This document shows positions 3,285 through 27,200 of a stretch of DNA of 42,590 nt, piece by piece. The notes beneath the pieces were generated by a model. It did not search any database, had not been told where the DNA came from, and saw only the letters and a list, made by a program, of their open reading frames with translations. Within the stretch, counting starts at the first letter, position 1; each line of letters starts with the position of its first letter. The DNA is from Candidatus Nanohalarchaeota archaeon (lineage in GTDB: Archaea > Nanohalarchaeota > Nanosalinia > Nanosalinales > JAFCCC01): assembly GCA_017610385.1 (NCBI GenBank), contig JAFCCC010000010.1, forward strand, positions 1 to 42,590, in the 5' to 3' direction. A program made the translations under genes and the position numbers.

Positions 3285-3416
3285 TGGACTGACCGGGAAT
3301 CGAACCCGGAGTCTCTGCCAATTTCTAATTGTGAAGTCTTCTATGAAAGACCACTAACCCATTCATTGAATTTGCAGTTATGCGAAGGCAGCGTCATTCC
3401 GTTAGACCACCAGCCC
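3285..3416 (-). tRNA. tRNA-Ala(CGC), intron 3321-3380
   Basis: Acceptor GGGCTGG pairs with TCAGTCC and includes G3-U70, the alanine identity pair. D-arm GGTCTAACGGAATGAC; anticodon stem CTGCC/GGCAG; spliced loop TTCGCAT gives anticodon CGC. A 60-nt intron sits at the canonical 37/38 site. The junction shows TTC pairing with GAA plus a G-A mismatch between the two cleavage bulges, a relaxed bulge-helix-bulge. No encoded CCA. Confidence 0.9.
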
Positions 3417-12789: not shown

Positions 12790-12925
12790 CGCTGAGAGCA
12801 GGATTTGAACCTGCGCTCCCTTACGAGAACCGGTTAAGTTGGCGCAAATTATTATATGGGATTGTATTTTTCCCACAGGTAAGCGCTTTCAAGACCGGCG
12901 CATTAGACCACTCTGCCATCTCAGC
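12790..12925 (-). tRNA. tRNA-Ser(TGA), intron about 12836-12887
   Basis: Class II tRNA: acceptor GCTGAGA/TCTCAGC with discriminator G73, a serine feature. Anticodon stem CCGGT/ACCGG, loop CTTGAAA, anticodon TGA. A 52-nt intron lies at 37/38 with GCGC/GCGC intron helix and TTG/CAA central helix; the 3' boundary is uncertain by 1-2 nt. T-loop TTCAAAT. Confidence 0.9.
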
Positions 12926-20488: not shown

Positions 20489-20653
20489 TTAATTATTATT
20501 TAAAATCACTTCTTTTCCTTCATCTAAGACTAAATATTCATTGAATTTTGCATTACATACTGGGCATTTTTTATAATCCCCCTTCTTTTCTCCAAAAGCT
20601 CCGCAAAAGGGACATTTCCTATTTAAATGTTGTAAATATGCCGTATCAATCAT
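20489..20653 (-). CDS. 54-aa zinc-ribbon protein inside the spc operon
   Basis: Short gene between eL32 and eL19, a place where archaea normally have nothing. 54 residues, with CPFCG at about 14-18 and CPVCN at about 30-34: a two-knuckle zinc ribbon, followed by a short acidic tail (LDEGKEV). The codon pattern fits its neighbours, and its stop lies 11 nt before eL19. The start overlaps the end of the +1 frame that follows eL32. Possibly an RNA- or ribosome-binding ribbon; function unknown. Confidence 0.75.
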   Translation of the reverse strand: MIDTAYLQHLNRKCPFCGAFGEKKGDYKKCPVCNAKFNEYLVLDEGKEVILNNN

Positions 20654-20672
20654 TTTTATCACTTTTTTTAAT

Positions 20673-20820
20673 CTCTTTTTCTTCCTTTACTCCTTTTAAA
20701 CCTTCTTTCTTGACTTTATTTTCTGATTCTTTTTTACTGGATTTTAATTCACTTGATTTTTCTATCTTTTCAACTTTCTTTTCCGCTTTCAATTTCGCTC
20801 TTTTTACTTTCCTTTTTAAT
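20673..20820 (-). repeat. Tail repeat, eL32 copy
   Basis: 20673-20787 (115 nt) is identical to 23533-23647, and 20787-20820 (34 nt) is identical to 23668-23701. The two copies differ by a 21-nt in-frame insertion in the uL24 copy. The repeat covers the last codons of each ribosomal gene, its TGA stop, and the following open +1 frame. Confidence 0.95.
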
Positions 20821-21183
20821 GCCTTTTTCTTCGATAATTTTCTTTTTTTCAACTCTTTTTGGATTTAATATTCTAATATTCATTTTTTCAGCTTCTGTCT
20901 CTATATCCTTCCTCTTTTTTAATCCAGTTTTGGAAGAAACTCTAACTACCACTGAATCATCTAGTTTTCTTAATTCAGTAATATTACAAATTAAAACCTC
21001 GGGTTTTCCAGACGGATGCAAATTTCGAGTAGATTTTGGAGATCTATATCCAGATCGTGGATAGTTGCCAGCACCCCGTATTTTTCTTTTAAGTTTACTT
21101 TGTAATCCCTTTGGTTTTCTCCATTTCATACCTAATCTTTTAAATCTGTGTGCATCTTGTCTCAAAAATTTAATTTTACTCAT
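20770..21183 (-). CDS. rpl32e: Ribosomal protein eL32 with K/E tail
   Basis: 137 aa from the ATG at 21183, which overlaps the uL6 stop by 8 nt; the frame extends upstream but lacks family similarity. The core FLRQDAHRFKRLGMKWRKP through RNLHPSGKPEVLICN to MNIRILNP is complete. After RILNPKR comes an unusual lysine/glutamate tail of about 27 residues ending SEIESGKES. After the TGA (20770-20772), the +1 frame stays open for 41 codons to 20646, overlapping the next gene's start. Confidence 0.93.
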   Translation of the reverse strand: MSKIKFLRQDAHRFKRLGMKWRKPKGLQSKLKRKIRGAGNYPRSGYRSPKSTRNLHPSGKPEVLICNITELRKLDDSVVVRVSSKTGLKKRKDIETEAEKMNIRILNPKRVEKKKIIEEKGIKKESKKSEIESGKES

Positions 21184-21706
21184 CAGACCACCCCACAGGA
21201 TAAATTCCATCTTGAAACTTTCTTGGATCTCTTCTGCCTTTATAACACGCCTTTTCTAATTTTCCTGCTGTCTGAGATACAAATTCTTTGCTCATTCCCC
21301 GAATTACGATTTCGTTACCATTTACCTTCATTGTAACCCCATCGCTCATGTTAATTTTTCGTGCTTTTCTCTCCCCTAAAAAATTCTGAATTTGAATTTC
21401 ATTACCTTGCACCTTAACAGACATTGGAAAATGTGCAAAAACACATTCCATTTTAAATACAAATTCTTTTTGAACTCCTTGAATCATATTTTTAATTAAA
21501 GCAGTAATTGTTCCTAAAACTGCGAGATCTGTTCTCTTTGCGCTACTGCACTCCAGCTTAATTTTTTTCTCGTTTGAGTTGTACTTTATTGAAATACCAC
21601 TATACTCAAATCGTTTTTTTAATTCTCCAAGGGTACTTCGTATAATAATAAAAGGTAATTCAATTTGGACATCTACGCCCTCTGGAACAATAAGTTCTTT
21701 TCGCAT
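21176..21706 (-). CDS. rpl6: Ribosomal protein uL6
   Basis: 176 aa, two repeated alpha/beta domains. It begins RKELIVPEGVDVQIELPFII. The second domain has the signature LGERKARKINMSDGVTMKV and the C-terminal YKGRRDPRKFQDGIYPVG. Sits near the sarcin-ricin loop and the GTPase centre. 8 nt after uS8. Confidence 0.96.
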   Translation of the reverse strand: MRKELIVPEGVDVQIELPFIIIRSTLGELKKRFEYSGISIKYNSNEKKIKLECSSAKRTDLAVLGTITALIKNMIQGVQKEFVFKMECVFAHFPMSVKVQGNEIQIQNFLGERKARKINMSDGVTMKVNGNEIVIRGMSKEFVSQTAGKLEKACYKGRRDPRKFQDGIYPVGWSDE

Positions 21707-21714
21707 TTTAATCT

Positions 21715-22104
21715 CTAATACACATATGCCAATAATGCGCCTCCTATGCCCTTTTCATGAGCTTCATAATGTGAAATTACTCCTTGAGACGTGGACAAAA
21801 TTAAAATACCAACACCTTTGGCCGGTAAATATCTTTTTTCCCACTTTAAGAATTCTTTATTTTTAATGTAAAATCTTGGTTTAATAATATTACAAGTATT
21901 AATTTCTTTATTGATCTGAACTATAAATTGATCAGCCCCAGAATTTTTAATAAATTCAAATTCGCCTATATAATTCTCTTTTTGCATTACTTTTAAAACA
22001 TCTTTAATTAGATTAGAGGCAGGACTAACTATAACCTCTTTTTTACCTACTCTTCTTGCATTTTTAATCGCACTTAATGCGTCTGCTAATGTATCTTGTT
22101 GCAT
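21715..22104 (-). CDS. rps8: Ribosomal protein uS8
   Basis: 129 aa from the ATG at 22104 (QQDTLADALSAIKNARRVGK), matching archaeal uS8 length; the longer in-frame start overlaps uS14 and is not supported. The C-terminal ISHYEAHEKGIGGALLAYVY is the conserved RNA-binding end. A GGTGA ribosome site lies upstream of the ATG. Confidence 0.95.
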   Translation of the reverse strand: MQQDTLADALSAIKNARRVGKKEVIVSPASNLIKDVLKVMQKENYIGEFEFIKNSGADQFIVQINKEINTCNIIKPRFYIKNKEFLKWEKRYLPAKGVGILILSTSQGVISHYEAHEKGIGGALLAYVY

Positions 22105-22112
22105 TATCTCAC

Positions 22113-22346
22113 CTATGAATATTTCTCGAAACCGAGATCCTCTGCAATTTCTCTGAAGCACTGCCTACAGTAATACAGATTATATTTTCTGATTATTCCT
22201 CGTCCGACTCTTCCGCATCTTCTGCACTTTCTTTTGCCTCTTCCGTAGCCTCTATTTTTTGGCATACTATGTTTCTTAAATCTCTTTTTCTTGTTCTTTT
22301 TATTCTCAATTTGTTTTAAAATTTCCTTATAGCTCAAATCTGTCAC
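22113..22346 (-). CDS. rps14: Ribosomal protein uS14, zinc-binding
   Basis: Core at residues 28-77: CRRCGRVGR and YYCRQCF give the four zinc cysteines, with [20 protein letters not shown] typical of archaeal uS14. I chose the GTG start at 22346, overlapping uL5 by 20 nt. It adds a basic 27-residue arm ([20 protein letters not shown]) and avoids a 61-nt gap in an otherwise tightly packed operon. An ATG at 22265 would give the minimal 50-aa protein. Confidence 0.9.
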
Positions 22347-22863
22347 CTTTTTCTACTTTTTCAACAGTAACATTGAAATTATTTCTTATATATTCAATTG
22401 CCTCCTCAGGAGTAATTTTATGCGTTTTACCAATTTTTCTGGGATTTCTTTTTAATTTAATTGAAAACCCAGGCCTTTTTAATGTCACACAAACATCAAA
22501 CCCTAAAATCCCGATCTTTGGATCATATTTCATTCCAGGAACATTCAAATATTCTTCAATACCAAATGAAAAATTTCCCTGTGTATCAAAGCTTTTAATA
22601 TCAATAATCTGCTTGGCCTCAAACATTTTCCGTAAAAATTCAATTGCCTTTTTACCCCTCATCGTTGCTTTAACACCAATATTTAGTCCTGGTCGAATAC
22701 CAAAAGTTCTTGCGGTTCTATTTGCCTTCGTTTTAACAGGTTTAACCCCAGTAATTCTTTCAATTAAGGTATACGCTTTTTCTAATTCTTCACCCGTACT
22801 TTTTAAACCCATATTAACCGTTATTTTACTTACACCAATGGTTCTCATTATATTTTCACTCAT
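22327..22863 (-). CDS. rpl5: Ribosomal protein uL5
   Basis: 178 aa; binds 5S rRNA and the P-site tRNA elbow. ISKITVNMG-type start ([20 protein letters not shown]), conserved [20 protein letters not shown], and the C-terminal [16 protein letters not shown]. Overlaps eS4 by 4 nt. Confidence 0.96.
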
Positions 22864-23522
22864 AATGTCAACTCCTCTTTTTCTTTACCAATTACATAAA
22901 CATAGTCTTTTATGGTGTAAAATTCTTCGTCTCCTTTTAATTGAACCTGATTTCCATCGATATTTATAATTTTACTGATTTTTCCTCTATGATTTCCTTT
23001 GAATACAATTGCCAAATTACCTTTTTCAAATAATAATTCTTTTTTGATTTCTTGTTCTGGTATGCTAATTACCAAGGAAGTAAAAGGACGGTATTTCTTG
23101 TCAGATAAAATATTTCTTCCATCATGCAAATTTATTTGGTATTTTCCATTTTTCATAGTTCTTACGCCAGTTACCCTGGCGATTTTTAGTTTAGATTCTT
23201 TATTACTAATTTCTTTTAAGGTAAGACCTTTTTTATCTACAGATACGCGATAATTAAGTTTTATAGATGGCATACTTATGACATCCATCAAACCTACACA
23301 ATATGTATCTTTTCTAACCTTGCCATCAACAAAAACTTCTTTACCATTCAAAATTTTCTTAACTTCTTTTCTTGTATCTGCTAATTTTAAAACATCTCGA
23401 ATAATTATAGAAAGTGCTAATCCATTTTCCTGTTTATGCGGACCTTTTGGCACTACTGTAAACTTCTTGGCCTTTCTTAGTATGGGATAGTGTCTTGGTG
23501 CAGATATTCTTTTAATTTGCAT
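22860..23522 (-). CDS. rps4e: Ribosomal protein eS4
   Basis: 220 aa. Starts MQIKRISAPRHYPILRKAKK; an S4-like RNA-binding domain (about 38-100) is followed by a central eS4 domain and a C-terminal KOW-like segment (IVFKGNHRGKISKIINIDGN). Its start codon overlaps the stop of the +1 frame trailing uL24. Confidence 0.96.
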   Translation of the reverse strand: MQIKRISAPRHYPILRKAKKFTVVPKGPHKQENGLALSIIIRDVLKLADTRKEVKKILNGKEVFVDGKVRKDTYCVGLMDVISMPSIKLNYRVSVDKKGLTLKEISNKESKLKIARVTGVRTMKNGKYQINLHDGRNILSDKKYRPFTSLVISIPEQEIKKELLFEKGNLAIVFKGNHRGKISKIINIDGNQVQLKGDEEFYTIKDYVYVIGKEKEELTL

Positions 23523-23532
23523 TTTTATTCGC

Positions 23533-23701
23533 CTCTTTTTCTTCCTTTACTCCTTTTAAACCTTCTTTCTTGACTTTATTTTCTGATTCTTTTTTACTGG
23601 ATTTTAATTCACTTGATTTTTCTATCTTTTCAACTTTCTTTTCCGCTAGCTTCTTTATTTCCTGTTTTTTCAATTTCGCTCTTTTTACTTTCCTTTTTAA
23701 T
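23533..23701 (-). repeat. Tail repeat, uL24 copy
   Basis: Second copy of the eL32 tail repeat: 115 nt identical (23533-23647), then a 21-nt in-frame insertion, then 34 nt identical (23668-23701). The near-perfect identity in a region of low constraint implies recent duplication or gene conversion. Confidence 0.95.
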
Positions 23702-24154
23702 CTCCTTTGTTTCTGTTTTAGTTTCTTTTTTTGGTTCTTTATTCTTTCTCTCCTTTTTCAAAGATTCTTTAATTTTTTGAGATAGTTTAGACTTCTTAAA
23801 TCTTTTATCATCTTCCATATGTAATGCGGTTACCACGACATTAGAGGGATCAACAGCGACTTTAACTTCAGAACTGTCTCTTTTTTTGGAGACAATTCCA
23901 TTAATATATATCTTATATTTCATTCGATCAACTTCAATAATTTCTCCTGAAATTCCTTTATGGTCTCCTCGTAATACTTTCACATAATCTTTTGTTCTTA
24001 GAGGAACGGCTCTTGAACCTAATTTTTTCCTTAAATCTTTTGAAAGCGTTGCGCTTAATAACTCGTTTCTAATGTGTTTTGGAGCATTTAGCCTGTATTT
24101 TCTTTGTTTTCTTCTATTTTTAGAGCTTATCCAGCTTTTACTCCACGCTTTCAT
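23630..24154 (-). CDS. rpl24: Ribosomal protein uL24 with long K/E tail
   Basis: 174 aa, longer than usual (about 120). The core has a KOW motif, YVKVLRGDHKGISGEIIEVD (about 58-77), and the archaeal N-terminus KSWISSKNRRKQRKYRLNAP. From about residue 120 a low-complexity Lys/Glu/Thr tail ends KEASGKES. After the TGA (23630-23632), the +1 frame stays open for 39 codons to 23512, overlapping the eS4 start. Confidence 0.94.
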   Translation of the reverse strand: MKAWSKSWISSKNRRKQRKYRLNAPKHIRNELLSATLSKDLRKKLGSRAVPLRTKDYVKVLRGDHKGISGEIIEVDRMKYKIYINGIVSKKRDSSEVKVAVDPSNVVVTALHMEDDKRFKKSKLSQKIKESLKKERKNKEPKKETKTETKEIKKESKKSEIEKTGNKEASGKES

Positions 24155-25687: not shown

Positions 25688-26614
25688 CTATCCGGAAACT
25701 CCAGTATTCAAAGTATCTAACAAAGTCTTTCTAGCTTTGCCCCTATTCTCCTGTTTTATTAGTTCTTTACACATACTTACAAATTCTTTTCTGGTCAATT
25801 CAGTTTTCTTTTCCTTTAAAAACGATTTAATTTCTTTAATCTTTTTAGTTAATATCTCTTCAGGAATTTTGACTGTATTCTCTTTCTTATTTTTTTCTTC
25901 TGTTTTTTTGGACTCTTTACTTTTCCCCTCTATTTCTTTCTCTTCAGTATCTTTTTTTATTCCTTTTTCTTCTTCGGTTTTTTTCAATTCCAATGTCTTT
26001 TTCGCTTGTATTTGTTCTAATTGATTTTTTTCGAATCTCTTTCTATAATAATATTCTGGAAGTTCTGTCATAATTCTTACTGTTACTCCAATAGTTCCTG
26101 GTTTAGTAACTGCAGTCGCCTTCGCAATTTCTACATATTCTTTTGCAGAGCCACCGCATCGTTTAACGCATCCAGATTTTATTTTTACTGTCCTTTTTCT
26201 TTCTCCTGATAATTTCCCGCTAATTTCAACCTGTGCACCAATCGCACCAGCACTCATTATTCTTTTTAAATAAGTACTTGCTACTCTTTTTGCATTGCCC
26301 CCTTTTTCTAACCAGCCGGCAATGTTCTTTGTGACTACTTTTGCATCTAAATCTACTTTTATAACCTCTTCTGCTTCAACTACTGGATTTTCAATATTAA
26401 AATTGTTCTTCAAAGCCTCTATTAATTTATTAATCTTTTCTCCACCACGACCAATAACTATACCCGGTTTTTGAGCTCTAATAATGATTCTTGTGCTCGT
26501 TGGAGTTTTATAAATAAAGATTTTACTGTAATTAGCTCGATCTAATTGTTTTTCCAAAAACTCTTCTAATCGTGCGTGTTCAATCCCTTTTTTTACGAAA
26601 TCTTTTTCAATCAT
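25688..26614 (-). CDS. rps3: Ribosomal protein uS3 with C-terminal domain
   Basis: 308 aa against about 210-230 typically. KH domain at about 40-100 with the GRGG loop (GIVIGRGGEKINKLIEALK) and the C-domain GAIGAQVEISGKLSGERKRT. After about residue 205 comes a charged linker (ELKKTEEEKGIKKDTEEKE...) and then a predicted helical domain (about 245-308: EEILTKKIKEIKSFLKEKK... to TLNTGVSG). The extra domain sits near the mRNA entry site; its role is unknown. Confidence 0.95.
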   Translation of the reverse strand: MIEKDFVKKGIEHARLEEFLEKQLDRANYSKIFIYKTPTSTRIIIRAQKPGIVIGRGGEKINKLIEALKNNFNIENPVVEAEEVIKVDLDAKVVTKNIAGWLEKGGNAKRVASTYLKRIMSAGAIGAQVEISGKLSGERKRTVKIKSGCVKRCGGSAKEYVEIAKATAVTKPGTIGVTVRIMTELPEYYYRKRFEKNQLEQIQAKKTLELKKTEEEKGIKKDTEEKEIEGKSKESKKTEEKNKKENTVKIPEEILTKKIKEIKSFLKEKKTELTRKEFVSMCKELIKQENRGKARKTLLDTLNTGVSG

Positions 26615-27018: not shown

Positions 27019-27200
27019 TTTTCACCTGACCTTCTGAAAGATCAATCCTCACGTAAAACTCTTACGAGTTTTCCTATGTTGTGAACAAAGTTCACAAGTA
27101 CAGCCAGTTGCAAGCAACTCACCGCCAAGCATTTGAGCCCATAGACTAAAACACCGTATTTGGTCAAACTTCGTTAAGTTTGCTCTTCTCATAATTTTGC
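27019..27200 (-). other. Hairpin-rich insertion between uS19 and uL22
   Basis: 182-nt gap in an operon where neighbours are 1-10 nt apart. On the minus strand it holds five perfect or near-perfect hairpins: AAACTT/AAGTTT (27168-27183), AGTTG/CAACT (27101-27114), TTGTGAAC/GTTCACAA (27075-27093), AAAACTC/GAGTTTT (27056-27073) and TGATCTT/AAGGTCA (27026-27043). CTATG/CATAG may enclose two of them. A 47-codon frame (27049-27192) exists but looks accidental. Confidence 0.6.

Follow-up and report, generated by a model that had tools for sequence, protein, structure and literature searches.

A frame-broken tail segment shared by the eL32 and uL24 genes of a nanohaloarchaeal ribosomal-protein operon, likely copied from uL24 into eL32

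Introduction

In the ribosomal-protein operon of a draft genome assigned to the Nanohalarchaeota, the genes for eL32 and uL24 both stop at a UGA codon lying in a piece of DNA that they hold in common, and beyond this UGA the +1 frame stays open up to the start of the next gene. This raises the question of whether the two proteins are extended by a programmed frameshift, as in release factor 2 or antizyme, to which a preliminary description had likened the arrangement, or whether a tail lost its frame and was then copied, which the same description had kept as a simpler fallback. A further question is how two unrelated genes came to share the segment at all. The window analysed here (42,590 nt) is an entire contig (C9) of this archaeal genome, which totals 788 kb with an estimated completeness of 93.5% and is split over 18 contigs, some reaching only 2–3 kb. 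It carries an archaeal 16S gene together with the ribosomal-protein operon, which lies on the minus strand, as do all the features of the window described below unless stated otherwise. The same contig holds two Rfam tRNA matches on the minus strand, at 3285–3416 (132 nt) and 12790–12925 (136 nt), both missed by ARAGORN, which are probably intron-containing tRNA genes.

Results and discussion

The identities of the two genes are secure. In frame 0 up to the UGA, eL32 spans 20770–21210 (Pfam PF01655, E 8.4e-32) when read from its first ATG at 21210, its true start being likely the ATG at 21183 (MSKIKFL), and uL24 spans 23630–24154 (PF16906, E 3.2e-23). Most junctions of the operon are overlaps or gaps of at most 11 nt, and the two gaps of more than 100 nt already pointed out in this packed operon measure 116 nt after eL32 and 107 nt after uL24; a third, of 182 nt, separates uS19 from uL22. 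Both genes end in frame 0 with GAA AGT TGA. The open +1 frame reported after each UGA is also confirmed: it continues for 41 codons and a TGA in eL32 (EKIEKSSELKSSKKESENKVKKEGLKGVKEEKEIKKSDKND, 20646–20771, stop at 20648–20646), overlapping the ATG of the next gene at 20653, and for 39 codons and a TAA in uL24 (EKIEKSSELKSSKKESENKVKKEGLKGVKEEKEANKNAN, 23512–23631, stop at 23514–23512), overlapping the eS4 start at 23522. The small gene that lies between eL32 and eL19 (20489–20653) encodes a zinc-ribbon-like protein (MIDTAYLQHLNRKCPFCGAFGEKKGDYKKCPVCNAKF...) with no Pfam match.

The tails have 148 nt in common, identical at 148 of 148 positions and arranged in blocks of 33 and 115 nt, which shortens by one the 149 nt first described and leaves intact the single in-frame difference of 21 nt. 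In eL32 the segment occupies 20673–20820 (blocks 20820–20788 and 20787–20673), and in uL24 it occupies 23533–23701 (169 nt, that is 148 shared plus 21), the additional 21 nt, AAAACAGGAAATAAAGAAGCT, lying between the blocks at 23648–23668 with a placement ambiguous by 1 nt. The borders are sharp, the flanks differ and the genes are unrelated. No third copy of the tail was found in the genome, and the tail peptide matched nothing in it beyond eL32 and uL24; a weak match at C3:61534 consisted of low-complexity sequence only and was discarded as a further copy.

The openness of the +1 frame is by itself weak evidence in such purine-rich DNA, being reproduced in 3.7% (eL32) and 7.1% (uL24) of dinucleotide shuffles. 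Codon usage is far more discriminating: among 5000 shuffles, a value at least as coding-like as the observed one was reached in none (eL32) and 0.02% (uL24) with a general codon model, and in 0.02% and 0.24%, respectively, with a Lys/Glu-rich one. Across 322 gene-end and frame tests, for which about 203 kb of readable sequence (the window and sampled stretches of the same genome) served as background, the two highest log-odds, 32.1 and 30.4, belong to these tails, and the third is 9.5. Frame 0 past the UGA is not coding-like; it is Lys/Arg-rich with many stops, as is usual for Lys/Glu text read out of frame, and these stops also rule out UGA as a sense codon. Since the codon phase is coding-like in the +1 frame and not in frame 0, the tail stretch was formerly protein-coding in the +1 frame. 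It could instead be imagined as a separate small gene, given the TTG codons present in the +1 frame (20852 or 20792 in eL32, 23673 in uL24) from which such an overlapping gene would start; against this, there is no in-frame ATG or GTG, a stand-alone K/E-rich product of 40–60 amino acids would be odd and no further homologue of the tail exists in the genome, so that we regard the probability of this reading as close to negligible.

The place where the frame breaks was then sought by scoring a single +1 switch at every codon. The switch falls inside the shared segment with a posterior of 0.85–0.86 in eL32 and of 0.98–0.99 in uL24. A7 runs do occur upstream, as had been noted, at corrected positions 20843–20849 and 23726–23732, and the codon-phase posterior of less than 0.02 rules them out as sites of the break. 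When the shared positions of the two genes were scored jointly with the general codon model, the break was placed within the 18 nt that end with the UGA (AGCGGAAAAGAAAGTTGA, 20770–20787; the same letters are found at 23647–23630 in uL24), and with the Lys/Glu-rich model its position was broader, spreading up to 20811. Because the switch lies inside the shared segment, one break that preceded the copying accounts for both genes. The fallback of the preliminary description, in which the loss of frame came before the copying, turns out to be the best supported reading.

A single erroneous letter in the assembly deserves consideration at this point. The true tails would then each be read in a single frame, the insert in eL32 would measure 147 nt, and both copies would share a one-base error, either through merging of the repeat or through a systematic error at an A-run. 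The draft state of the genome, with its 18 contigs, and the richness of the segment in A4–A6 runs fit with this; moreover, with one base removed each gene reads through without interruption to its native stop, and the copying of 147 nt in frame would make a biologically neat event. On the other side, no comparable gene end exists elsewhere in the ~203 kb, so indel errors appear uncommon here, and the assembly of the copies must have been separate at least in part, given their 21-nt difference and their unique flanks. We consider an error of this kind unlikely, although it is the main rival to a true frame break, and the possibility that the assembly hides a one-base error weighs against any history built on this break.

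For comparison we used 27 genomes of the same order, the nearest ones compared and none of the same family; no genome of that family occurs among the 28 available for the order, and a wider contig search for one matched just two loci, one from Micrarchaeota and one from Pacearchaeota. In these relatives uL24 has a long charged tail, in one frame, in every readable case, and eL32 is mostly short, ending within about 10 residues past a conserved LN, although the relatives are too distant to show an empty site base by base. Three uL24 genes (L042, L055, L064) and one eL32 gene (L009) were not readable at the fixed offset, the open-frame lengths of the three uL24 genes (241–272) agreeing with long tails. 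The DNA of the segment had no match in the 27 genomes beyond one 36-nt low-complexity match, and the arrangement of UGA and +1 frame is kept in none of them.

The direction of the exchange can be addressed from both ends. Without the segment, eL32 still ends in frame, IEEKG being joined to IKKSDKND and a stop that overlaps the next start like that of other genes here, and it then resembles the short eL32 ends of most relatives. Furthermore, the segment borders in eL32 carry a direct repeat, GAAGAAAAAGnnATTAAAAA, matching at 18 of 20 positions in precisely the register needed for an insertion (left copy GAAGAAAAAGGCATTAAAAA, 20813–20832; right copy GAAGAAAAAGAGATTAAAAA, 20665–20684), with P 0.0005 against random position pairs in Lys/Glu-rich tails. 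In uL24 no direct repeat is found at the borders in the exact register (P 0.44). The junction evidence for eL32 as the recipient is moderate, because the two genes are not separable once the register is free to shift by as much as 4 nt. The recent exchange between two ribosomal tails that the preliminary description had proposed is upheld, and its direction can be suggested: given that in the relatives uL24 is long-tailed and eL32 mostly ends short, and that only eL32 has the junction repeat, uL24 is likely the donor and eL32 the recipient. The reverse, in which eL32 would have donated its frame-broken segment to uL24, could appeal to the fact that uL24 minus the segment also ends in frame (KTETKE joined to ANKNAN and a stop) and to a later gain of the additional 21 nt; confronted with the tail lengths of the relatives and the lack of a junction repeat in uL24, it appears very improbable.

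We next consider whether the UGA could be bypassed in translation. A +1 shift, programmed or compensatory, or else slippage during transcription, taking place at the UGA or immediately ahead of it, would produce long-tailed eL32 and uL24 proteins, the signal having been copied along with the tail. Several features speak in its favour: past the UGA, both genes have a +1 frame that is open and coding-like, the shared stretch includes GGA AAA GAA, which could let a Lys-tRNA on AAA pair anew with AAG, and neither tail has gained a stop or any change since the copying. In bacterial release factor 2 the codon that precedes the UGA re-pairs from CUU to UUU in the +1 frame. Here the UGA is preceded by AGU, which, judged from general decoding rules, would re-pair poorly on GUU. 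By eye, the upstream sequence GAAAGCGGAAAAGAAAGT has no AGGAG-like run that could act as a Shine–Dalgarno-like stimulator, and the downstream sequences have folding z-scores of +1.05 and +1.11, less structured than their own shuffles and with no stem-loop. As regards slippage, the A6 run of uL24 (23665–23670) is missing in eL32 and the A7 runs are disfavoured, as seen above. The arrangement is absent from the genomes of the order and no other candidate was found in the ~203 kb sampled. This absence of conservation and of a fold is what is expected for a plain loss of frame.

The comparison with known systems leads in the same direction. The gene of bacterial release factor 2 (prfB), in which the shift takes place at the codon 5' of the UGA (PMC5009743), has, like eL32 and uL24, a UGA beyond which the +1 frame stays open, and differs from them in its slippery codon, its stimulator and its conservation, as well as in the +1 part, which here is a dispensable-looking tail rather than the body of a protein. 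For archaea, a 2021 review lists a single programmed frameshift as demonstrated, the -1 shift of the Saccharolobus solfataricus alpha-L-fucosidase (PMC8211752); this archaeal gene also has its frames overlapping in an A-rich region, but it relies on a -1 shift with a slippery heptamer and a putative stem-loop, whereas the present case is +1 with no stem-loop. The GeneTack study (Antonov et al. 2013, PMC3711429) required conservation of the frameshift site among at least five clustered homologues and explained singletons by sequencing error or recent indels; across the 27 genomes such conservation was not found. Like those singletons, the eL32 and uL24 genes have a non-conserved frame transition near the 3' end; unlike them, the same break is found in two genes, apparently through copying. 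The likeness to release factor 2 and antizyme is thus unsupported, and a programmed or compensatory shift, or slippage, is in our opinion quite improbable. Little credence can likewise be given to the idea of an archaeal +1 recoding signal through which two ribosomal proteins are made both in a tailed and in an untailed form, this signal having passed from one gene to the other together with the charged tail. If the frame were nonetheless corrected in translation, it would represent +1 recoding in cellular archaea, to be set against the one demonstrated -1 case (PMC8211752).

Taken together, these observations are best explained by a loss of frame in the uL24 tail followed by copying of the tail into eL32, a history that we hold to be probable. 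A one-base indel in the long charged C-terminal tail of uL24 would have placed its last ~40 codons out of frame, with translation stopping at the UGA. A 148-nt piece of the broken tail would subsequently have been inserted at the end of eL32, which lies in the same operon at a distance of 2.9 kb. The mechanism would be template switching or ectopic gene conversion, acting between tails that are both Lys/Glu-rich and of low complexity and guided by microhomology, with ATTAAAAA at the entry and GAAGAAAAAG at the exit. Either eL32 would have lost the 21 nt or uL24 would have gained them. The copied UGA would now be the end of both genes, leaving the +1 tail as a recent remnant, probably untranslated, whose coding codon phase is still visible and whose end would overlap the next start because the original stop of each gene lay there. 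This history demands that the broken tail was copied before its decay, a somewhat lucky sequence of events.

An identical segment present twice, microhomology at the recipient junctions, a duplicated junction sequence and a small internal indel are also what ectopic gene conversion and microhomology-mediated template switching look like; the usual cases differ in that here the partners are the tails of two unrelated ribosomal proteins within one archaeal operon and the copied piece is frame-broken. Our search of the literature on uL24 tails returned nothing relevant (eL24 only). The locus would offer a recent and sharply bordered case of charged low-complexity tails of ribosomal proteins spreading between genes by copying in small-genome archaea, and of such a tail losing its frame with no visible cost.

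Other features of the operon were recorded along the way. The uS3 gene (25688–26614) contains a long Lys/Glu-rich stretch, EEKGIKKDTEEKEIEGKSKESKKTEEKNKKEN, similar in composition to the eL32 and uL24 tails and followed by a further C-terminal part. The 182-nt gap between uS19 and uL22 (27019–27200) holds a structured element (fold z -2.45) of a dispersed family with no Rfam match, of which seven copies were found in the genome, aligning over ~98 nt with four predicted hairpins. The six further copies (L084–L089, on contigs C11, C13 and C17) are 55–92 nt long and 84–93% identical, and in the seven-copy alignment 6 of the 32 pairs are changed on both sides with pairing kept. The family may possibly be an undescribed structured RNA or a small dispersed repeat family; two of its copies (L087 and L089) lie within ~60 nt of tRNA genes predicted by ARAGORN.
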